Under the pieces are notes generated by a model. The model ran no database searches and was not told the DNA's origin. It worked only from the letters and a program-made list of their open reading frames with translations. From NCBI GenBank assembly GCA_001950395.1, contig BDLO01000001.1:248001-312000 (forward strand): a stretch of DNA of 64,000 bases. The letters run 5' to 3'. Positions within the stretch are counted from its first letter, which is position 1. Each line of letters opens with the position of its first letter. The stretch is from Coriobacteriaceae bacterium EMTCatB1. Its GTDB lineage: Bacteria > Actinomycetota > Coriobacteriia > Anaerosomatales > Anaerosomataceae. The position numbers were made by a program, and so were the translations under genes. Shown here in pieces: positions 46,384 through 61,443 of the stretch.

Positions 46384-47799
46384 ATGAGCCGGACAGCAGA
46401 TACGCGGACATCCGGGCTTCGGCCGCTTAACGGCCACTTGCAGAACGTCGCAGACAACCTGCAGCTGATCGCCGACCTCGGCTACGGAGACGTGGCGTTG
46501 GCGGTGCCCGAGGACGGGGTCTTGCGGGTCGTCGCGGACGCCCGCCCCGCGACTGCCGTCTCTGCGATCGGCGCCACCCGCGTCGGGCGGGAGTTGTCCC
46601 CGGAAGAGGAAGCGGAGGCGTACGAGGCGCTCCGCTCGGCGCTGCCGTCCTGCGGCACGCGGCGGCGCACGGCCCGAGGCATCGTGTACGCCACGGCCGC
46701 TTACCCGGTCGTCTCCGACGACGTCATCTCTGGCGTCATCGTCCGCAACCTCGCCGACCAGGTCACGGAGAGCCCAGGCGCGATGGAAGTCGCGTTCATG
46801 GGGCTTGCCGAGCGGGTGATCCGACTGTTGTGCGAAGGTCCTGTCCTCGACGTGGACACTGGCTCGCCGTTCTCCACCGTCCGTCGCGCGGGCGACGGCG
46901 TCATGGAAGTTGATGCGAAGGGCAAAGTAGCGTACGCGAGTCCGAACGCGGTGAACATCATGCGGCTGGCGGGGATGGAAGGCGCCATCGCTGACAGAGC
47001 CGCCACCGAGCTTCCTGGGGGCGCGACCGCCGTAGCGCCCGTGGTGCACGCGCGCGGTGGCCGTGCCGTCACCGTCGAGGTCGCCGGGCGCGTCCTGAGC
47101 TACCGCGCCATCGGGTTCGACCCCGGCGCGCTCGTGGTCGTGGAAGACGTCACCGACGTCAGGCGACGGGAGCAGGAGATCCGCGTCAAGGAAGCGACGA
47201 TCCGCGAGGTCCACCACCGGGTGAAGAACAACCTCCAGACCATCGCATCGCTTCTGCGCATCCAGGCGCGCAGGGCGGAAAGCGACGAGGCGAAGCGCGC
47301 CCTTGCCGAGGCGGTCGACCGCGTGGCCTCGATGGCCGTCGTGCACGAGATGCTCGCAGCGGCCACTGAAGAAGCTGTCGACTTCGCCGCAGTGGCCCAC
47401 ACGGTGGTGGACATGGTCGTGCGAGGCATGGGTGCGGAGGGCAGGGCCCGTGCGAACGTCGAAGGCAGCACCGGCCTGGTGCCAGCAGCGTCCGCCACGT
47501 CCCTTGCGCTGGTGCTCGCCGAGCTCGTCCACAACGCGATAGAGCACGGCCTCAAGGCGGGCTCAGGCGAGGTCGTGGTGACGCTCCGACGAGGCGCTGA
47601 GGTGCTGATGCTGAGCGTGCGCGACAGCGGAGCCGGCCTGCCGGATGGCTTCGACGCGCTCACCTCCGGCAACCTGGGTTTGGCGATCGTGCGCACTGTC
47701 GTGGAGGAGGATTTGCGCGGGACCCTCGCGTTCTCGAGCGGTCGTGGCACCACCGTGACGGTGCGGGTGCCCATGGGTGCGGAAGACGGGAGGCGCTGA
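46384..47799 (+). CDS. PdtaS-like sensor histidine kinase
   Basis: 471 aa (ATG 46384; GTG 46378 possible). An N-terminal GAF-like domain (about 1-150), a PAS-like domain (about 165-265) and a HisKA_2-type kinase core: REVHHRVKNNLQTIASLL carries the phospho-acceptor His near residue 277, and ELVHNAIEHGL and DSGAGLPDGFD form the ATP site. It is soluble, with no membrane segment. In Mycobacterium, PdtaS phosphorylates the ANTAR protein PdtaR; the adjacent gene is exactly that type. The input signal is unknown; the neighbourhood suggests nitrogen. Confidence 0.88.
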   Translation: MSRTADTRTSGLRPLNGHLQNVADNLQLIADLGYGDVALAVPEDGVLRVVADARPATAVSAIGATRVGRELSPEEEAEAYEALRSALPSCGTRRRTARGIVYATAAYPVVSDDVISGVIVRNLADQVTESPGAMEVAFMGLAERVIRLLCEGPVLDVDTGSPFSTVRRAGDGVMEVDAKGKVAYASPNAVNIMRLAGMEGAIADRAATELPGGATAVAPVVHARGGRAVTVEVAGRVLSYRAIGFDPGALVVVEDVTDVRRREQEIRVKEATIREVHHRVKNNLQTIASLLRIQARRAESDEAKRALAEAVDRVASMAVVHEMLAAATEEAVDFAAVAHTVVDMVVRGMGAEGRARANVEGSTGLVPAASATSLALVLAELVHNAIEHGLKAGSGEVVVTLRRGAEVLMLSVRDSGAGLPDGFDALTSGNLGLAIVRTVVEEDLRGTLAFSSGRGTTVTVRVPMGAEDGRR

Positions 47800-47800
47800 G

Positions 47801-48370
47801 GTGCGCGTGCTCATCGCAGAGGACGAGGCCATCATCCGCATGGACCTTCGCGAGATGCTGGAGGAAGAAGGCCACCAGGTGGTGGGCGAGGCGCGCGACG
47901 GCGAGGAGGCGATCCGGCTTGCTCGGGAGCTCCGCCCCGACGTGGTGTTCATGGACATCAAGATGCCCGGCGTGGATGGGATCGCAGCCGCACGGGCTCT
48001 GTGCGACGAGCGGATCGCCCCGGTGGTGATGGTGACCGCGTTCTCGCAAGCGACGTACGTGGAAGAGGCATGCGCTGCGGGCGCGATGGCGTACCTCGTC
48101 AAACCCTTCGCGAAGAAGGACATCCTGCCTGCCATGCAAGTTGCGGTCGCGAGATTCGCAGAGGCGCGCGCGCTCGAAGAGGAGGCGGCCGATCTCTCCG
48201 AGCGGCTCGAGACGCGCAAGCTGCTCGACCGGGCGAAGGGCGTCCTCATGGCGCAGGGTCTGAGCGAGCCCGAGGCGTTCCGCAGGATCCAGAAGCTCGC
48301 GATGGACAAGCGCATGCCGCTCAAGGAGGTGGCGCGCGCCATCGTGCTCGCCGAAGAGGCGAGGGGCTGA
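47801..48370 (+). CDS. PdtaR-like ANTAR response regulator (RNA antiterminator)
   Basis: 189 aa, GTG 47801, two bases after pdtaS, with GGGAGG upstream. Receiver domain 1-120 with acidic pocket EDE near residue 7 and phospho-Asp52 (FMDIKMPG). A coiled linker leads to an ANTAR domain (about 125-185: RKLLDRAKGVLMAQGLSEPE, AMDKRMPLKEVARAIV). When phosphorylated, ANTAR dimers bind paired hexaloop RNA hairpins and prevent termination. Such an element lies at 54250-54334. Confidence 0.93.
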   Translation: MRVLIAEDEAIIRMDLREMLEEEGHQVVGEARDGEEAIRLARELRPDVVFMDIKMPGVDGIAAARALCDERIAPVVMVTAFSQATYVEEACAAGAMAYLVKPFAKKDILPAMQVAVARFAEARALEEEAADLSERLETRKLLDRAKGVLMAQGLSEPEAFRRIQKLAMDKRMPLKEVARAIVLAEEARG

Positions 48371-48389
48371 GGTCGGAGGCCCGTTGAGG

Positions 48390-48418
48390 TTGTGCTGTTC
48401 AACACCCAGTGATACATT
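48390..48418 (+). promoter_or_regulatory. Promoter of the amide/branched-chain ABC transporter operon
   Basis: TTGTGC (48390-48395), 17-bp spacer, TACATT (48413-48418). It leaves a leader of about 85 bases before the binding-protein gene; that leader contains GC hairpins but no paired ANTAR hexaloops that I can see. Confidence 0.45.
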
Positions 48419-48508
48419 CAGGCGCATACCGCTGCACGGAGCAGGCGGCTCCAGGGCGGGTGCGTCAGCGGCAGAAGGCAGCGTACGGCAACGGAAGGTG
48501 GGAGGCAC

Positions 48509-49717
48509 ATGAAGCGAGGGACAGCGCTGCTCAGCCTGGCTGTAGTGGCATCTCTGCTCGTCGCCGGGTGCTCTTCGGGCACCAAGACCGGCGGCGGCAC
48601 GGGAGGTACAGGCGCAGACGACAAGATCATCATCGGTTCAGCGCTCTGCCAGACAGGCATCCAGGCTCCGCTGGATGAGCCGGCACTGCGGGGGGCGCAG
48701 CTGGCAGTCGACGAGCTGAACGCGAAGGGCGGAATCCTCGGCAAGAAGGTCGAGCTCATCGCGATGGACGGCAAGAGCGATCCGGTGACCGTGGGCAACG
48801 TGGCGAAGCAGCTCATCGAGCAGGGGGCGGACGCCATCATCGCCCCGAGCGACTTCGACTTCGGCGGACCCGCGTCTCGCGAGGCGCAGAAGGCAGGCAT
48901 CGTCGGCATCTCGCCGTGCGCGTCCTCGCCGCTGTATGGATCTGCAGCTCTGGGCGACAAGCAGTTCACGCTCTCCATGTGGAACACCACTATGGGAGCT
49001 GCGACCGCCGAGTACGCATACAACGTCAAGGGATGGCGTTCGGTCTACGTCATCACGGACGACTTCATCGACTACACGAAGAGCCTCTCTCGGTACTTCA
49101 TCGTCCGCTTCAAGGAGCTCGGCGGCAAGGTCATCTTCGAGGACACGTACACCCAGGGTCAGGCGGACGCCTCAGCTCAGCTTGCGCGAATCAAGGCGCT
49201 CAAGGAGAAGCCGGACTTCATCTACATCTCCTCGTATCAGCCGGACCTCGCGCTCATCATCCGCACCCTTCGTGAGAGCGGCGTGACGCAGCCGGTGGTC
49301 GGCGGCGACTCGTACGACGACCCGTCGCTGTTCGAGGCCCTCGGCTCCAAGTACGGCAGCGACATCATCTATGACACGCACGGCTTCCTTTCGGACGAGG
49401 CGAACCCGAAGTACTCCGAGTTCGCGGCCGCTTACAAGAAGAAGTTCGGATCGGATCCTGATGCCGTCTGGATCATGCCCGGCTACGACGTCGTCATGGT
49501 GCTCGCCCAGGCGATGGAGAAGGCGGGAACCACGGACGGGGCAGCAGTGGCGAAGGCGATGGAGGACATGACCTTCGACTGCCTGACCGGCAAGTTGGAC
49601 TGGGCGCCGGCGGACAAGGGCCACGAGCCGAACAAGGCGGCTGCACTGGTCGAGCTCGTCGCTGGCAAGCCGAAGTTCCTCGGCTGGGTGATTCCGGAGA
49701 AGATTCCTGCTCCGTAG
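48509..49717 (+). CDS. ABC transporter substrate-binding lipoprotein, branched-chain amino acid/amide type
   Basis: 402 aa. Lipoprotein signal with lipobox LVAGC (Cys21), a Gly/Thr-rich linker, then a type I periplasmic-binding fold (GAQLAVDELNAKGGILGKKV; YVITDDFIDYTKS). Related proteins bind leucine/isoleucine/valine, urea or short amides. The adjacent acetamidase and ANTAR regulator make an amide more likely (inference). Confidence 0.9.
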   Translation: MKRGTALLSLAVVASLLVAGCSSGTKTGGGTGGTGADDKIIIGSALCQTGIQAPLDEPALRGAQLAVDELNAKGGILGKKVELIAMDGKSDPVTVGNVAKQLIEQGADAIIAPSDFDFGGPASREAQKAGIVGISPCASSPLYGSAALGDKQFTLSMWNTTMGAATAEYAYNVKGWRSVYVITDDFIDYTKSLSRYFIVRFKELGGKVIFEDTYTQGQADASAQLARIKALKEKPDFIYISSYQPDLALIIRTLRESGVTQPVVGGDSYDDPSLFEALGSKYGSDIIYDTHGFLSDEANPKYSEFAAAYKKKFGSDPDAVWIMPGYDVVMVLAQAMEKAGTTDGAAVAKAMEDMTFDCLTGKLDWAPADKGHEPNKAAALVELVAGKPKFLGWVIPEKIPAP

Positions 49718-54199: not shown

Positions 54200-54230
54200 C
54201 TGCAGCCTGCCCATTTCCTTCGGGTTGCAG
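54200..54230 (+). terminator. Hairpin ending the acetamidase operon
   Basis: CTGCAGCC (54200-54207) pairs with GGTTGCAG (54223-54230, one G-U). Only a short T-containing sequence follows, so strength is uncertain. It lies between the acetamidase stop and the next promoter. Confidence 0.45.
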
Positions 54231-54233
54231 GTG

Positions 54234-54242
54234 TGTTAGAAT
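54234..54242 (+). promoter_or_regulatory. Extended -10 promoter of the glutamate synthase operon
   Basis: TGTTAGAAT; the transcript would begin near 54249, immediately before the first ANTAR-type hairpin. Confidence 0.65.
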
Positions 54243-54249
54243 CCGCGCA

Positions 54250-54298
54250 CGGCACAACGGCGTGCCGAATCTGATACGACGCGAGCAAAGGCGCTCGC
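54250..54298 (+). promoter_or_regulatory. ANTAR-type dual hexaloop RNA element
   Basis: Hairpin 1: CGGCAC / GTGCCG (54250-54255, 54262-54267) with loop AACGGC. Hairpin 2: GCGAGC / GCTCGC (54281-54286, 54293-54298) with loop AAAGGC. Both loops have six bases with A at position 1 and G at position 4, the known recognition pattern for ANTAR-domain antiterminators (EutV, NasR, AmiR type). The 3' arm of hairpin 2 is also the 5' arm of the terminator that follows, so the two folds exclude each other. The PdtaR-like ANTAR protein is encoded about 6 kb upstream. Confidence 0.8.
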
Positions 54299-54334
54299 CT
54301 CGGCCAAGCGGCCGACGGCGGGCGCTTTGTTTTT
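54288..54334 (+). terminator. Regulated intrinsic terminator of the glutamate synthase leader
   Basis: Long stem: 54288-54299 with 54317-54328 (one bulged C at 54316), continuing TCGGCC/GGCCGA to an AAGC loop, followed by GTTTTT. It precedes the first gene by 25 bases. Formation requires hairpin 2 of the ANTAR element to open. Confidence 0.85.
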
Positions 54335-54358
54335 CCGACGAAGGACCGGTGAGGCAGC

Positions 54359-55693
54359 GTGAAGGAGTTCGCAGTCTTCTGGGGGTGCACGATCCCCGCG
54401 CGGTTCCCGTTCATCGAGAAGGCCACGCGGCTGGTCTTCGACGACCTCGGCGCGGTCGTGCACGAGCTCGACGGGCACACCTGCTGTCCTGAGGGGGTGC
54501 TCGTCAAGTCGAACGACGAGGACGCCTTCTACCTCGTCGCCGCGCGCAACCTCGCGATCGTCGAGCGCGCGGGCCTGGACGTCGTGACGCCGTGCAACGG
54601 ATGCTACTCGACCTTCAAGGAGGCGGAGAGCCACCTGACGGCGGACTGGCGAGCGCGCGAGGCAATCAACGCACGGCTCGAGGCCGAGGATCTGCGCTTC
54701 GACGGCACGACGACCGTCGTGCACCTCGCAGAGTGGCTGGCGGACTCGCTCGGCGCGGGACCGGTGGCGGCGAAGGCGGTAAAGCCGCCGTGGGGGCTTC
54801 GGATCGCCGTCCACTACGGCTGTCACCTGCTGCGGCCAAGCCCGGCAGTGCGCTGGGACGACCCGATGTCGCCATCGAAAGTCGAAGCGCTCGTGGTCGC
54901 GCTCGGCGCGACTGTCGTCGACTATCCGACGAAGATGCAGTGCTGTGGCGGCGCGCTCGATCGCGTGGGAGAGCGCGACGCCTCGCTCGCGTTCGCGCGC
55001 AGGAAGCTCATGGACCTGCAGGCGCACGGCGTGGACGCGCTCGTCGTGGTGTGCCCAAGCTGCTTCCAGCAGTTCGACCTCAACCAGGCCGCGCTCCAGC
55101 GGGCGAAGGAAGACGTGCACGTGCCCGTGCTCTACCTCTCGGAGCTCGTCGCGCTCGCGTACGGGCACTCGCCCGACGAGCTCGGGCTGGACATGCACCG
55201 CGTGGGCGTGCAGCCGTTCTTGGAGAAGTGGGAGGCGCGGCAGGCGGACAAGGCGCGGCTGGCTGCGCTCTTCGACGTGTCGTTGCTCGCCAAGTGCGTG
55301 AACTGCCAGGCGTGCAAGGACGACTGCCCGGTGTGCAAAATCGACCCCGCCTTCCAGCCCACCGAGATCATGGAGCGGCTGCTCGCTGGCGAAATCGACG
55401 AGGTGCTCGCAGAGCGGCAGCTGTGGAAGTGTCTCGAGTGCTACACCTGCCAGGAGTTGTGCCCGAGCCGCATCGGCATGGCGGACACGTTCTGCCGTCT
55501 GAAGGAGCTGGCGATCGAGGCCGGGCTTGGCCCGGAGCAGGTGGTCTCCGCGTACGAGACCTTCGTCAAGACGGGTCTGCTCGGGTCGGCGCGCGAATCG
55601 GCGCGCAAGAAACTCGGGCTCGAGCCGCTGCCGGCACGCGGGGGAGATCTGTCGGACCTGCTTGGCACTGACGAGGGAGAGGAGTCGCGATGA
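54359..55693 (+). CDS. HdrBC-like fused iron-sulfur protein
   Basis: 444 aa, GTG 54359 with GGTGAGG upstream. Residues 1-270 resemble HdrB: two CCG modules, with WGC...TCC...CNGC and YGC...QCCGG...CPSC, expected to hold non-cubane [4Fe-4S] clusters. Residues about 305-370 resemble HdrC: two C-x2-C-x2-C-x3-C-P motifs (CVNCQACKDDCP, CLECYTCQELCP). No membrane segment. In heterodisulfide reductases HdrBC accepts electrons from HdrA; here the next genes are glutamate synthase, so it may carry electrons to it (inference). Its stop overlaps the next ATG (ATGA). Confidence 0.85.
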   Translation: MKEFAVFWGCTIPARFPFIEKATRLVFDDLGAVVHELDGHTCCPEGVLVKSNDEDAFYLVAARNLAIVERAGLDVVTPCNGCYSTFKEAESHLTADWRAREAINARLEAEDLRFDGTTTVVHLAEWLADSLGAGPVAAKAVKPPWGLRIAVHYGCHLLRPSPAVRWDDPMSPSKVEALVVALGATVVDYPTKMQCCGGALDRVGERDASLAFARRKLMDLQAHGVDALVVVCPSCFQQFDLNQAALQRAKEDVHVPVLYLSELVALAYGHSPDELGLDMHRVGVQPFLEKWEARQADKARLAALFDVSLLAKCVNCQACKDDCPVCKIDPAFQPTEIMERLLAGEIDEVLAERQLWKCLECYTCQELCPSRIGMADTFCRLKELAIEAGLGPEQVVSAYETFVKTGLLGSARESARKKLGLEPLPARGGDLSDLLGTDEGEESR

Positions 55694-56898
55694 GCGTCAC
55701 ACGTCCCCGGTACGCCGAAGAGGCGCCGTTCAAGATCCACGGCGGGTGCGGGCTCGCCGGCATCTGCGACGAGAGCGGCGCGACGATGAGCGGCGAGGAC
55801 ATCATCCTTGCGATGGCCGTCCAGCGCGACCGCGGCAACGGCCTCGGCGGCGGCTTCGCCGGCTACGGGATCTACCCGGAGTTCCCGGACCACTTCGCGT
55901 TCCACATGATGTACCACGACGAACAAGCACGCGAAGAGGCCGAGGTACTGCTGAACGAGCACTGCGTGGTGGACCTCGCCGAGCCGATGCCGACGCGGCC
56001 GGTGAAGGGGATCTCCGACGCGCCGCTCCTGTGGCGGTACTTCCTGAAGCCGCTGCCGGGCGAGCTCGAGCGGCTGGAGCTCTCGGAGGAGGACCTCGTC
56101 GTCCGGCTCGTGATGACCATCAACGCCGCAGTCGACGGCGCGTTCGTCGCGTCGAGCGGCAAGAACATGGGTGTCTGCAAAGGCGTCGGGTTCCCTGAGG
56201 AGATCGGGCACTTCTATCGGCTCGAGGAGTACGAGGGCCACACCTGGACGGGTCACAACCGCTTCCCGACGAACACGCCCGGCTGGTGGGGCGGCGCGCA
56301 CCCGTTCGCGCTGCTCGACTGGACGATCGTGCACAACGGCGAGATCTCCTCGTACGGCATCAACTCGCGCTACCTCGAGCAGTTCGGCTACAAGTGCACG
56401 CTCGGGACAGACACCGAGGTCGCGGCGTACCTGTTCGACCTGATGCTGCGCCGTCACGGGCTGCCGCTCGAGCTCGCGTGCAAGGCGCTCGCCGCTCCGC
56501 TGTGGTCTGAGATCGACCGGATGCCAGAGGGCGAGCGCGAGCTCATGCGCTCGCTGCGCGCCGTGTACGGCCCTGCGATGCTGAACGGCCCGTTCGCCAT
56601 CATCTTGGGCTTCAACGGCGGCATGGTGGCGCTCAATGACCGCATCAAGCTGCGGCCGCTCGTGGCTGCGCGGTCTGGGAGCAAGGTGATCGTCGCGTCT
56701 GAGGAAGCGGCTATCCGAGCGGTGGCGCCAGAGCCCGACGTGGTGTGGATGCCGAAGGCGGGCGAGCCGACGGTGGCGCGGGTCGCCGGCATGCCCTGGC
56801 CGATCCACGGCGATCTGCATCTGACGCCTGCAGAAATCTCGTGCGCGGTCGTGGGCGTCGAAGACGTGTGCGACGAAGCGGTGGAGGTGACCGCGTAA
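55690..56898 (+). CDS. Glutamate synthase glutaminase-domain subunit (archaeal-type GltB1)
   Basis: 402 aa. Class II amidotransferase domain: the candidate nucleophile is Cys20 in HGGCGLAGICDESG, so a 19-residue propeptide would have to be removed. GHNRFPTNTPGWWGGAHPF and VHNGEISSYGINSRYLE are further signatures. It hydrolyses glutamine and passes ammonia to the FMN subunit. In standard bacterial GltB this domain is fused to the rest; here it is a separate gene, as in archaea and some anaerobes. Confidence 0.9.
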   Translation: MSVTRPRYAEEAPFKIHGGCGLAGICDESGATMSGEDIILAMAVQRDRGNGLGGGFAGYGIYPEFPDHFAFHMMYHDEQAREEAEVLLNEHCVVDLAEPMPTRPVKGISDAPLLWRYFLKPLPGELERLELSEEDLVVRLVMTINAAVDGAFVASSGKNMGVCKGVGFPEEIGHFYRLEEYEGHTWTGHNRFPTNTPGWWGGAHPFALLDWTIVHNGEISSYGINSRYLEQFGYKCTLGTDTEVAAYLFDLMLRRHGLPLELACKALAAPLWSEIDRMPEGERELMRSLRAVYGPAMLNGPFAIILGFNGGMVALNDRIKLRPLVAARSGSKVIVASEEAAIRAVAPEPDVVWMPKAGEPTVARVAGMPWPIHGDLHLTPAEISCAVVGVEDVCDEAVEVTA

Positions 56899-56899
56899 G

Positions 56900-58411
56900 A
56901 TGCCTGCGACGTTCATCCAGCCCGAGTTCCGGGTCAAGATCGACTACGACAAGTGCCACAAGTGCGGGCGCTGCGTGCAGCAGTGCGGGTGGGGCGTGTA
57001 CGACTTCAACGAGCGCCCGATCCCGCACGACGAGAAGTGCCGGGCGTGCCATCGCTGCGTGACCTTCTGCCCGGCGCACTGCATCACCATCGAACGCAAC
57101 CCGCTCGCGTACCGCGACAACGACAACTGGTCGGCGTCACTGCGCAAGGCGGTGTGGAAGCAGGCCGAGACGGGGGGCGTGCTGCTCACCTCGATGGGCA
57201 ACCCGCAGCCGTACCCCCGCATCTTCGACCACCTGCTGCTGGATGCCTGCCAGGTCACGAACCCGTCGATCGACCCGCTGCGCGAGCCGATGGAGCTCCG
57301 CACCTACCTCGGCCGCAAGCCGGACGCGGTGAAGGTCGAGCCCGACGGGGCTGGCGGCTTTCGGTTGGCCGAAGGCGGCGGGATGAGCCGCAACGTCGAG
57401 CTCGCCACCCCGATCATCTTCTCGCCGATGAGCTACGGGTCGGTCTCGCTCAACGTGCACAAGTCGCTCGCGATGGCCGCTGAGCGATGCGGCATTCTCA
57501 TGAACACGGGCGAGGGCGGTCTGCACGAGGACCTGTACCCGTACCAGGACCACGTGATCGTGCAGGTGGCCTCCGGGCGCTTCGGCGTCGGACCGGACTA
57601 CCTGAAGCGCGGCGCGGCGATCGAGATCAAGATCGGCCAGGGCGCGAAGCCGGGCATCGGCGGGCACCTGCCGGGCGAGAAGATCAACAAGGAGGTCTCC
57701 TCCACCCGGATGATCCCGCAGGGCACGGACGCCATCTCGCCTGCTCCGCACCACGACATCTACTCGATCGAGGACCTGCGGCAGCTCATCTACGCGCTCA
57801 AGGAGGCGAGCGGCTACAAGCCGGTCGGCGTGAAGATCGCGGCCGTCCACAACGTCGCTGCCATCGCGAGCGGCATCGTGCGGGCCGGCGCCGACTACGT
57901 CTACCTCGACGGCTTCCGCGGCGGCACGGGCGCGGCCCCGGCGGTGATCCGCGACCACGTGGGCATCCCCGTGGAGATCGCGATCGCCGTCGTCGACCAG
58001 CGCCTGCGGGAGGAGGGCATCCGCAACCAGGCGTCGATCGTCGCCGCCGGCTCGATTCGCTCGTCGGCCGACGTCGCGAAGGCGATCGCGCTCGGCGCGG
58101 ACGTGGTGGCGATCGGGACGGCGGCGCTCATCGCGCTGGGCTGTCACGTGTGCCAGAGCTGCCACACCGGCAACTGCTCGTGGGGCATCACGACGCAGAA
58201 GCCCGAGCTCACGCGGCGCATCGACCCGGAGTGGGGAGCGGAGCGCGTCAGCAACCTCATCAACGCCTGGAGCCACGAGCTGCAGGAGATCTTGGGCGCG
58301 CTCGGCGTGAACGCCATCGAGAGCCTGCGCGGCAGCCGCGAGCGGCTGCGCTCGATTGGGCTGGATGAGCAGACGAGCCGCATCTTGGGCGTGAAGCCCG
58401 CGGGGATGTGA
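56900..58411 (+). CDS. Glutamate synthase FMN/iron-sulfur subunit (archaeal-type GltB2)
   Basis: 503 aa. Two ferredoxin-type clusters at the N-terminus (CHKCGRCVQQCG and CRACHRCVTFCP), then the FMN-binding TIM barrel (FSPMSYGSVSLNVHKSLAMA, GVGPDYLKRGAAIEIKIGQG, DGFRGGTGAAP). A cysteine group CHVCQSCHTGNC lies near residue 415-426 for the [3Fe-4S] cluster. Reduces 2-oxoglutarate plus ammonia to glutamate. The extra ferredoxin domain can accept electrons from another Fe-S protein instead of a GltD flavoprotein. Confidence 0.93.
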   Translation: MPATFIQPEFRVKIDYDKCHKCGRCVQQCGWGVYDFNERPIPHDEKCRACHRCVTFCPAHCITIERNPLAYRDNDNWSASLRKAVWKQAETGGVLLTSMGNPQPYPRIFDHLLLDACQVTNPSIDPLREPMELRTYLGRKPDAVKVEPDGAGGFRLAEGGGMSRNVELATPIIFSPMSYGSVSLNVHKSLAMAAERCGILMNTGEGGLHEDLYPYQDHVIVQVASGRFGVGPDYLKRGAAIEIKIGQGAKPGIGGHLPGEKINKEVSSTRMIPQGTDAISPAPHHDIYSIEDLRQLIYALKEASGYKPVGVKIAAVHNVAAIASGIVRAGADYVYLDGFRGGTGAAPAVIRDHVGIPVEIAIAVVDQRLREEGIRNQASIVAAGSIRSSADVAKAIALGADVVAIGTAALIALGCHVCQSCHTGNCSWGITTQKPELTRRIDPEWGAERVSNLINAWSHELQEILGALGVNAIESLRGSRERLRSIGLDEQTSRILGVKPAGM

Positions 58412-58420
58412 GGAGGAGCG

Positions 58421-59230
58421 ATGCCGATCCAGGTCATCGAGGGTTACCGCCAGGTTGAGCCGGCGCGGCGCACCGAAGGCGACGCGGTCGTCTTTGACGC
58501 GAACGGCGTGTACTACCAGCAGCTGAACGACGCCATCCGCGCCGCGGTCGAGGCAGGCGCGAAGCGCATCGTCGTTGAGAATGCCAACGGGCAGCGCTAC
58601 ATCGGGGCGGGGCTTCAGGCGAAGGACCTCACGATCGAGGTGCGCGGGACCGCGGGCAACGACCTCGCGGCGTTCATGGACGGCCCGAAAGTCGAGGTGT
58701 TCGGCAACGCCCAGGACGGCGTCGGCAACACCATGGCGTCGGGAACGGTCGTCGTGCACGGCGATGCGGGCGACGTGCTCGGGTACGGCATGCGCGGCGG
58801 TCGCGTGTTCGTGCGCGGCGACGTGGGCTACCGCGTCGGAATCCACATGAAGGCGTACGAGGGCCTGGTGCCGATCGTCGTGTGCGGCGGCAAGGCGCGC
58901 GACTTCTTCGGCGAGTACATGGCGGGCGGCATGCTCGTGCTGCTCGGGATGAACACGCAGTTCCCGGACGACCCGGTGGCAGGCGGCTTCCTTGGCACCG
59001 GAATGCACGGCGGGGTCATCTACGTGCGCGGCGCCGTCGAGCCGTGGCAGTGCGGCAAAGAGGTCGGCGTCAGCGAAGCAGAGGAGGCCGACATGGCAGC
59101 GCTCACGCCGGTCCTCGACGAGTACTGCGCGTCGCTGGGGCTGGACCTGGCGGAGGTGTTGAGCGAGCCCTTCACGCGGATCGCGCCGGTGAGCCACCGG
59201 CCGTACGGCAAGCTCTACGCCTACCTCTAA
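58421..59230 (+). CDS. Glutamate synthase GXGXG-domain subunit (archaeal-type GltB3)
   Basis: 269 aa, with AGGAGGAG before the ATG. A right-handed beta-helix with repeated Gly patterns (YIGAGLQAKDLTIEVRGTAG, VHGDAGDVLGYGMRGGRVFV, GGVIYVRGAV), the C-terminal domain of GltB also found in FwdC/FmdC. It links the glutaminase and synthase sites. Third separate piece of the enzyme. Confidence 0.9.
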   Translation: MPIQVIEGYRQVEPARRTEGDAVVFDANGVYYQQLNDAIRAAVEAGAKRIVVENANGQRYIGAGLQAKDLTIEVRGTAGNDLAAFMDGPKVEVFGNAQDGVGNTMASGTVVVHGDAGDVLGYGMRGGRVFVRGDVGYRVGIHMKAYEGLVPIVVCGGKARDFFGEYMAGGMLVLLGMNTQFPDDPVAGGFLGTGMHGGVIYVRGAVEPWQCGKEVGVSEAEEADMAALTPVLDEYCASLGLDLAEVLSEPFTRIAPVSHRPYGKLYAYL

Positions 59231-59351
59231 GGCGCTGTTCGCGAGGAGTTCTTCTGCTCGAAACACGTTGGAAACACGCGTGCGCGAGCATGGCGGTGGA
59301 CGCGTAGGAGGCCGGCGAGGAGCCGGCGTAGCGAAGGCGAAGGAGGATCCA

Positions 59352-60683
59352 GTGATCACGAGGTTCGACAAGGACTACGTGCTCAAGACGGTCGAAGAGC
59401 GCGGAATCAGGTTCATCCGCTTCTGGTTCACCGACGTGCTCGGCGTGCTCAAGTCGTTCGCGATCACCGACAGCGAGCTCGAAGGCGCGTTCGAGGAGGG
59501 TATGGGCTTCGACGGCTCCTCGATCGACGGCTACACCCGCATCCAGGAGTCCGACATGGTGGCGTTCCCGGACGCCAGCACCTTCCAGTTGCTGCCGTGG
59601 CGCTCCGGCGAGGTCGGCGTCGCGCGCATGTTCTGCGACGTGCGCAAGCCGGACGGCTCTCCGTTCGAGGGCGACCCGCGCTACGCGCTCAAGCGCATGC
59701 TCGACAAGGCCGCGGCGATGGGCTACACGATGTACGTCGGCCCTGAGCTCGAGTTCTTCTACTTCAAGAACGACAAGGGTACCGAGGTGCTCGACTTGGG
59801 CGGCTACTTCGACCTGACGCCGCTCGACGTGGCGAGCGACCTGCGCCGCGAGACGGTGCTCACGCTCGAGAAGCTCGGCATCCCGGTGGAGTACTCGCAC
59901 CACGAGGTCGCGCCGTCGCAGCACGAGATCGACCTGCGGTACGCCGATGCGCTCACGATGGCGGACAACGTCATGACCTACCGCCTCGTCGTCAAGGAGA
60001 TCGCGTATCAGAACGGCGTGTACGCCACGTTCATGCCCAAGCCCATCGAGGGCCAGAACGGGTCGGGCATGCACACGCACCAGTCGCTGTTCACGAAGGA
60101 CGGCAACGCGTTCTACGACCCGAACGACCCGCAGCACCTTTCGAAGATCGCGCGGCACTACATCGCCGGTCTGCTCAAGTACGCGCCGGAGTTCTGCGCC
60201 GTCACCAACCCGCTCGTGAACTCCTACAAGCGGCTCGTCCCGGGCTACGAGGCGCCGGTGTACATCTCGTGGGCGCAGCGCAACCGCTCCGCGATGGTGC
60301 GCGTGCCGATGTACAAGCCGGGCAAGGAGGCCGCGACGCGCATCGAGCTTCGCTCGCCCGACCCCTCGTGCAACCCGTACCTCGCGTTCGCGGTCATGCT
60401 GGGCGCAGGTCTCAAGGGCATCGAGGAGGAGCTCGAACTCATGCCGGAGGCCACCAACGACATCTTCGAGATGACCGAGGACGAGCTCGCGGAGGCGGGC
60501 ATCGGGACGCTGCCGAAGAACCTCGGCGAGGCGATCGAGCGCTTCGAGCACTCCGAGCTCATGCGCGAGGTGCTGGGCGAGCACATCCACGCGTTCTACG
60601 TGGAGAACAAGAAGGCCGAGTGGGCCGACTACATCAAGAACGTCTCCAAGTGGGAGCTCGACCGCTACCTGTCGGTGGTCTAA
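59352..60683 (+). CDS. glnA: Glutamine synthetase, type I
   Basis: 443 aa from GTG 59352, with AGGAGGA (59341-59347) upstream. MGFDGSSIDGYTRIQESDM, GPELEFFYF, QNGSGMHTHQS and the ATP-site region KPGKEAATRIELRSPDPSCN are diagnostic. The length and the lack of the NLY adenylylation loop place it in the GSI-alpha group, regulated by feedback and protein partners rather than adenylylation. The 121-base gap before it contains a GCCGGC-GAGGA-GCCGGC hairpin but no clear promoter, so read-through from the glutamate synthase operon is likely. Confidence 0.97.
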   Translation: MITRFDKDYVLKTVEERGIRFIRFWFTDVLGVLKSFAITDSELEGAFEEGMGFDGSSIDGYTRIQESDMVAFPDASTFQLLPWRSGEVGVARMFCDVRKPDGSPFEGDPRYALKRMLDKAAAMGYTMYVGPELEFFYFKNDKGTEVLDLGGYFDLTPLDVASDLRRETVLTLEKLGIPVEYSHHEVAPSQHEIDLRYADALTMADNVMTYRLVVKEIAYQNGVYATFMPKPIEGQNGSGMHTHQSLFTKDGNAFYDPNDPQHLSKIARHYIAGLLKYAPEFCAVTNPLVNSYKRLVPGYEAPVYISWAQRNRSAMVRVPMYKPGKEAATRIELRSPDPSCNPYLAFAVMLGAGLKGIEEELELMPEATNDIFEMTEDELAEAGIGTLPKNLGEAIERFEHSELMREVLGEHIHAFYVENKKAEWADYIKNVSKWELDRYLSVV

Positions 60684-60764: not shown

Positions 60765-60770
60765 TATGAT
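60765..60770 (+). promoter_or_regulatory. -10 of the glnR-like gene
   Basis: TATGAT ends 7 bases before GTG 60778, consistent with a leaderless transcript. It overlaps two ATG codons that would otherwise be alternative starts. Confidence 0.45.
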
Positions 60771-60777
60771 GGCGCAC

Positions 60778-61443
60778 GTGAAGACTATCGCGATAGCGAG
60801 CGACGACCAGCACCTCGCTGCCCGGCTTTGCGAGGCGCTTGAGCGGCTCGACGCCTCCGTGACCGTGCTCCCGCGCGAGGCCGCGCTGCGTCCGGAGCGC
60901 CTGTCGGACGCGGCGCTGCTCATCGCGGACGCCGGTCACGACAGCCGCGAGATCGTCGCGGCGTCTGAGCGCCGCGCAGCGAGCGACGAGCCGCTGCCGC
61001 TGCTCCTCGTGGTCGAGCACGACGCCGTGCCGGGGCTGCGGCTGCCCGTGGGGGTGCCCGCCGACTTCGTGGTGCGGGACGCCGCCGCAAGCGAGGTCGC
61101 CGCACGCGCTCGGCTTCTGCTCTGGCCAGGCGAGGAGGCGGCCGGCTCGGAGATCGTGCGGATCGGAGACCTCACGCTCAACCTCGCCACCTACCAAGCG
61201 CACATCGCCGGCCAGCCGGTGGAGTTCACCTACCTCGAGTACGCGCTCTTCGCGTTCCTCGTGACGCACCCGAACCGCGTCTACAGCCGCGACGCGCTCC
61301 TCAAGCGCGTGTGGGGGCACGACTACTTCGGCGGCGCGCGCACGGTGGACGTCCACGTGCGGCGCGTCCGCTCCAAGCTCGGGCCAGAGCTCGCCGCGCG
61401 CCTGGAGACGGTCCGCAACGTCGGCTACCTGTGGCGGAGCTGA
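60778..61443 (+). CDS. GlnR-like OmpR-family transcriptional regulator
   Basis: 221 aa from GTG 60778; ATG 60766, with a G-rich SD 12 bases upstream, is the alternative. The N-terminal receiver-like domain (1-115) lacks the normal acidic pocket and phosphorylation pattern. The C-terminal winged helix (about 130-220) is strongly OmpR-like: EFTYLEYALFAFLVTHPNRV, WGHDYFGGARTVDVHVRRV and VRNVGYLW. This layout matches actinobacterial GlnR, an orphan regulator of nitrogen genes. Its position next to glnA supports that role. No partner kinase is adjacent. Confidence 0.85.
   Translation: MKTIAIASDDQHLAARLCEALERLDASVTVLPREAALRPERLSDAALLIADAGHDSREIVAASERRAASDEPLPLLLVVEHDAVPGLRLPVGVPADFVVRDAAASEVAARARLLLWPGEEAAGSEIVRIGDLTLNLATYQAHIAGQPVEFTYLEYALFAFLVTHPNRVYSRDALLKRVWGHDYFGGARTVDVHVRRVRSKLGPELAARLETVRNVGYLWRS

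Follow-up and report, generated by a model that had tools for sequence, protein, structure and literature searches.

Comparison with known ANTAR-controlled leaders

The dual-hairpin model of ANTAR-controlled RNAs is established, and such RNAs have been found before glutamate synthase genes in Desulfotomaculum reducens (PMC3369931). The glutamate and nitrogen operons of D. reducens and D. acetoxidans carry, like the operon described here, a pair of hexaloop hairpins ahead of the glutamate synthase genes. In Desulfotomaculum one regulon comprises multiple RNAs, of which D. acetoxidans has at least 13, whereas here one RNA and one target are found per genome; the host here belongs to the Coriobacteriia, and the first gene of the operon is HdrBC-like. 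The EutV/EutW-eutP leader of Enterococcus faecalis (PMC3369931, PMC8934654) shares with the present locus a kinase, a REC-ANTAR regulator, the hairpins P1 and P2, and a terminator overlapping P2. It differs in its ethanolamine signal, its eut target and its linker of 5-12 nt, against 13 nt here, and a 14-nt linker impaired induction by EutV (PMC3369931).

A survey of actinobacterial ANTAR RNAs covers the same RNA family in the same phylum; it found few terminator overlaps, a strict one-to-one relation is not reported, and Coriobacteriia and glutamate synthase are not named in its main text (PMC8164766). For mycobacterial ANTAR RNAs, the reported mode is a translational block at the ribosome site (PMC8164766), whereas here a terminator is involved. 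A literature search pairing ANTAR domain with the truncated term Coriobacteri gave no match.

In the window, the 64-kb stretch of DNA analysed here, we read positions 54234-54358 as a transcription attenuator under ANTAR control that serves a single operon, with a probability of about 0.93. While an ANTAR RNA before glutamate synthase is already known from Desulfotomaculum, the present one stands out by the strength of its comparative support and by a clean one-to-one-to-one arrangement of regulator, RNA and target. ANTAR control via terminator overlap has rarely been seen in Actinomycetota; in this case it is retained throughout an order.

Architecture of the leader

The leader consists of the following elements.

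54234-54242, + strand: extended -10 promoter, TGTTAGAAT, assigned from sequence
54250-54267, + strand: P1 hairpin, CGGCAC-AACGGC-GTGCCG, 6 bp, loop AACGGC at 54256-54261
54268-54280, + strand: linker between P1 and P2, 13 nt
54281-54298, + strand: P2 hairpin (antiterminator), GCGAGC-AAAGGC-GCTCGC, 6 bp, loop AAAGGC at 54287-54292
54291-54325, + strand: intrinsic terminator stem, GCGCTCGCCTCGGCC-AAGC-GGCCGA-C-GGCGGGCGC, mutually exclusive with P2
54326-54334, + strand: T-tract of the terminator, TTTGTTTTT

The preliminary description had named an extended -10 promoter and two hexaloop hairpins spaced by 13 bases, and each of these elements was recovered to the base. The overlap that it had placed between the second hairpin and the terminator is also exact, bases 54291-54298 being common to both. 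Both loops in the window have A at position 1 and G at position 4. With both strands counted, the 64 kb contain one pair of hexaloops of the form A..G.. in which both stems have at least 6 bp; dinucleotide shuffles gave a mean of 0.1 such pairs, with 3 of 30 shuffles containing any, an estimate made before an overlapping terminator was required.

The leader folds with a z-score of -3.5. The full free RNA folds as P1 and the terminator, at -42.5 kcal/mol against -21.5 kcal/mol for P1 and P2, and transcripts cut short at 54300-54310 form P1 and P2. The sequence itself thus encodes the succession of steps that one expects from an attenuator. The leader was not called by generic scans for promoters and terminators; the simple terminator scan probably missed the terminator because the T-tract is interrupted and the long stem carries a bulge. 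The -10 element lies 7 bp before P1 in the window, and 44 of 47 leaders have TGNTANNNT 7-10 bp ahead of P1, so transcription probably starts at the first base of P1 or right beside it.

Among predicted actinobacterial ANTAR RNAs, an overlap with the ribosome site or start codon is seen in about 37%, and overlaps with terminators are few (PMC8164766), which would favour repression by PdtaR binding through a translational block, as in mycobacterial ANTAR RNAs. Here, however, P2 ends 60 nt before the GTG start codon at 54359, and its overlap is with the terminator and not with the ribosome site, which is placed downstream of the terminator. A translational mode is therefore not suggested, and we consider repression of this kind very improbable.

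Regulator genes

The genes of a two-component system are present upstream of the leader.

46384-47799, + strand: PdtaS-like histidine kinase with GAF_PdtaS, HisKA_2 and HATPase_c domains, H-box EVHHRVKNNLQ
47777-48370, + strand: PdtaR-like response regulator carrying an ANTAR domain; no other ANTAR protein is encoded in the genome

This pair had been placed 6-8 kb upstream in the preliminary description, and the genes are located 5.9-7.9 kb upstream. The regulator possesses Response_reg (102.9 bits) and ANTAR (75.2 bits) domains, above the curated Pfam cut-off, and its phospho-acceptor is conserved in the motif FMDIKMPG. Its closest solved relative is Mycobacterium PdtaR (Rv1626, PDB 1s8n), whose system likewise has a kinase with a GAF_PdtaS domain. 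Comparison with the contact residues of EutV, taken from PMC8934654, found R142, K143, K149, E160, M172 and R175 kept in the window protein. Y164 is replaced by F and K147 by R; R168, N173 and R177 are replaced by Q, D and P, respectively.

Conservation of the leader in related genomes

Homologues were sought with the first gene of the operon, which gave 67 loci and covered 55 of 61 related genomes. Those relatives that bear a name are Coriobacteriia MAGs, several of them called Anaerosomatales. P1, P2 and the terminator were present in 47 of 50 homologous leaders under the same dual-hairpin test, and the paired hexaloops are thus conserved in relatives, as the preliminary description would have it. 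The three failing leaders all fail on P1, by one mismatch (L017), a weaker stem (L029) or loss of the hairpin (L026, genome G051).

The preliminary description had also proposed to align homologous leaders for compensatory changes, and these are strong in P1 and in the terminator stem. Changes on both sides of the pair were found at five of the six P1 pairs, and 97% of P1 cells pair among 44 distinct sequences; because the scan required G4 and most P1 pairs, the percentage paired and the invariance of G4 are partly a product of construction, which does not hold for the both-sided changes. At the base of the terminator, both-sided changes occur at two of six pairs, in 24 cells, and 100% of cells are paired. 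Shuffled and slid controls remained far below the observed covariation of terminator and P1, and no shuffle reached the terminator figure. The top four pairs of P2 hardly vary and are therefore neutral, speaking neither for nor against.

The terminator, located 3′ of the acetamidase gene, would halt readthrough from that gene as well, so it could be read as the gene's ordinary intrinsic terminator, with P1 and P2 as chance resemblances. Against this stand the promoter between the acetamidase gene and the terminator, the retention of P1, P2 and terminator in 47 of 50 leaders with differing upstream neighbours, the covariation, and the co-occurrence with an ANTAR gene described below. We regard a plain acetamidase terminator as very improbable.

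Position 1 of the loop is A in 35 of 44 distinct P1 loops and in 42 of 44 distinct P2 loops, the remainder being G (nine and two, respectively). The rule of A1 and G4 given in the preliminary description therefore holds for both window loops, but A1 is not strict in the relatives. None of the leaders failed for want of G4, which the scan itself required. The linker ranges from 3 to 19 nt in relatives.

Several variants deserve mention. L002 and L003, from the genus of the window, have GATGAC as first loop, with G at position 1; the main ANTAR contacts are the same as in the window, so this natural A-to-G change comes without obvious change in the protein. The long linkers of L012, L014 and L040 hold the self-complementary ATCCGNATAGGAT, which could fold and shorten the distance between P1 and P2. 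In L026, upstream of HdrBC in the Coriobacteriia MAG G051, P1 is gone, the -10 element lies just before P2 and the terminator is kept, giving a single-hexaloop variant. The position-1 G within the genus, the linkers of 3-19 nt and the loss of P1 in G051 amount to a ready-made mutant series. The system is a clean one for studying sensing by PdtaS-type kinases, strictness at loop position 1 and tolerance of linker length.

Co-occurrence of the RNA and the ANTAR protein

A covariance model was built from the aligned leaders and then run on genomes. The preliminary description had suggested scoring with such a model, and the model made from these leaders gives the window leader 60.2 bits. This is the one strong match in the complete 1.84-Mb genome, which encodes exactly one ANTAR protein; the genome-wide search for further ANTAR RNAs found no second credible copy, the next match scoring 20.8 bits. 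A single strong match was found in 54 of 61 related genomes, and in each it precedes the same HdrBC-GltS operon by 59-121 nt. In every one of the 45 genomes where RNA and ANTAR gene share a contig, the gene lies upstream on the same strand, often at a distance of 77-150 nt and within 200 nt in 18 of the 45. Leaders outside the model training were recovered at 54-59 bits (G055, G015, G049, G035 and G011) and at 37-39 bits (G124 and G061), and all of them precede the HdrBC gene.

Among 298 genomes of the class, 60 were RNA-positive and 73 had an ANTAR protein over the cut-off; the protein was present in 59 of the 60 RNA-positive genomes, the exception being 64% complete. The scanned genomes are related to each other, so these counts are not independent events. 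In genomes of the order that bear the ANTAR protein and gave no RNA match, mostly the HdrBC gene is absent or its start is cut by a contig end (L016). In the phylum-wide search of 396 genomes, five matches were obtained: G000-G002, of the genus of the window, G577, whose leader is identical to the training leader L045, and G632, a weak match in which no HdrBC context was seen. As a natural control, homologues of the operon from other lineages, at 45-60% identity (L044, L047, L050-L055, L057-L062 and L066), share the order of the glutamate synthase genes and lack both the leader and a nearby PdtaSR pair. Genome G057 (98% complete) keeps PdtaSR, and the HdrBC operon and leader were not found in it, owing to an assembly gap or another target.

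Regulator, switch and target are inherited together in these little-studied anaerobic bacteria. The pairing that had been postulated between leader and regulator is supported, since the leader tracks the ANTAR gene both in presence (59 of 60) and in position (45 of 45). In Rfam, the leader had no family match at the gathering score, and matches at chance level alone at E up to 10. A two-hairpin leader controlled by a metabolite or another RNA-binding protein would agree with the lack of a matching Rfam family, but the loops fit the A1/G4 hexaloop rule, and the leader follows a single ANTAR gene, its usual neighbour, across the class. Such non-ANTAR control has a very slight chance of being correct. 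The ANTAR antitermination architecture proposed earlier is thus supported by covariance model, covariation, hexaloops and regulator pairing. Points against it are the 13-nt linker, G at position 1 in a fifth of distinct P1 loops, the changes at N173, R168 and R177 of EutV, and the loss of P1 in G051.

Controlled operon and proposed mechanism

Downstream of the leader, the window harbours genes for glutamate and glutamine synthesis.

54359-55693, + strand: HdrB/HdrC-like fused iron-sulphur protein, first gene of the operon
55690-56898, + strand: glutamine amidotransferase class II protein (amidotransferase part of GltS)
56900-58411, + strand: FMN core of glutamate synthase, with a ferredoxin domain at the N-terminus
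58421-59230, + strand: GXGXG domain protein (C-terminal part of GltS)
59353-60683, + strand: type I glutamine synthetase GlnA, open frame from 59268

The glutamate synthase operon of the preliminary description is present as three separate GltS parts; the first gene, however, is HdrBC-like. The probable start of GlnA is the GTG at 59353, after AAGGAGG. Since the target combines an electron carrier of HdrBC type with glutamate synthase parts that bear ferredoxin, the signal may combine nitrogen and redox state.

By analogy with EutV, NasR and AmiR, the control would involve phosphorylation and binding of PdtaR, with activation as its sign. Transcription would start at about the first base of P1, and P1 and then P2 would fold as the RNA emerges. 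When the regulator is absent, the growing terminator would displace P2, and RNA polymerase would stop before the HdrBC-GltS genes. A signal would trigger the cytosolic kinase PdtaS, leading to phosphorylation of PdtaR, whose ANTAR domains would bind the hexaloops of P1 and P2 and hold P2. With P2 held, the terminator could not form and the operon would be transcribed.

Possible GlnR-like regulation

GlnR boxes with 11-bp spaced GAAAC/GTTTC half-sites are known in actinobacteria. The window holds related elements and a candidate regulator.

54213-54228, + strand: degenerate 11-bp direct repeat ATTTC-n6-GTTGC, candidate GlnR-like operator (GTTTC-n6-GTTTC in relatives)
59260-59275, - strand: exact copy of the GTTTC-n6-GTTTC repeat, upstream of glnA; the genome has two exact copies in all
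60766-61443, + strand: GlnR-like response regulator of the OmpR family, which may bind the repeat

Of 47 leaders, 29 have the exact repeat upstream of the -10 element, where 0.02 would be expected; its distance to the -10 hexamer is phased, at about 8, 20 or 31 bp. The degenerate copy taken alone is not above chance in the window, the case resting on its position and on the relatives. The regulator is weakly GlnR-like, with 26.4 bits for GlnR_1st, just below the cut-off of 27. Its gene directly follows glnA, a position kept in many relatives, and its best solved relatives are 8hig and 8hih, which we take to be GlnR structures. This suggests, as a lead and not as proof, that a GlnR-like regulator acts in series with the leader through the 11-bp repeat upstream of the promoter. 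There is an even chance that a two-layer nitrogen gate operates across the order, with the GlnR-like protein governing initiation and PdtaS/PdtaR governing elongation, and with a purine tolerated at position 1 of the P1 loop.

Putative amide transporter and acetamidase genes

Between PdtaR and the leader, the window encodes an ABC transporter of the branched-chain-amino-acid/urea/amide type and an FmdA/AmdA-family protein. The amide genes are absent from sister species; in G002 and G003, which have none, a gap of 77-78 nt separates the ANTAR domain and the RNA. What remains between regulator and RNA in G001 is the binding protein and an FmdA stub of 23 residues. Genes in this gap differ elsewhere, and include MgtE, a Na/H exchanger, radical SAM, cell-wall-binding and GH65 proteins. 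A search before the amide transporter, where 48370-48509 was also read directly, found no ANTAR dual hairpin with stems of at least 5 bp.

The amide system was considered as a member of the circuit and rejected, as the intervening genes vary, G002 and G003 have none and G001 has a partial deletion. Given the absence in G002 and G003, the remnant in G001 and the other genes found elsewhere, the amide genes are a lineage-specific accessory insertion. They may share a nitrogen theme with the switch, and nothing found ties them to it. The nitrogen circuit within one stretch of DNA, as outlined previously, therefore stands for PdtaS, PdtaR, the leader and HdrBC/GltS (with GlnA), and not for the transporter and acetamidase. 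In G001 (locus L172, 2624-3924), the binding protein is 94.5% identical to that of the window, a remnant of a livGFHM deletion.
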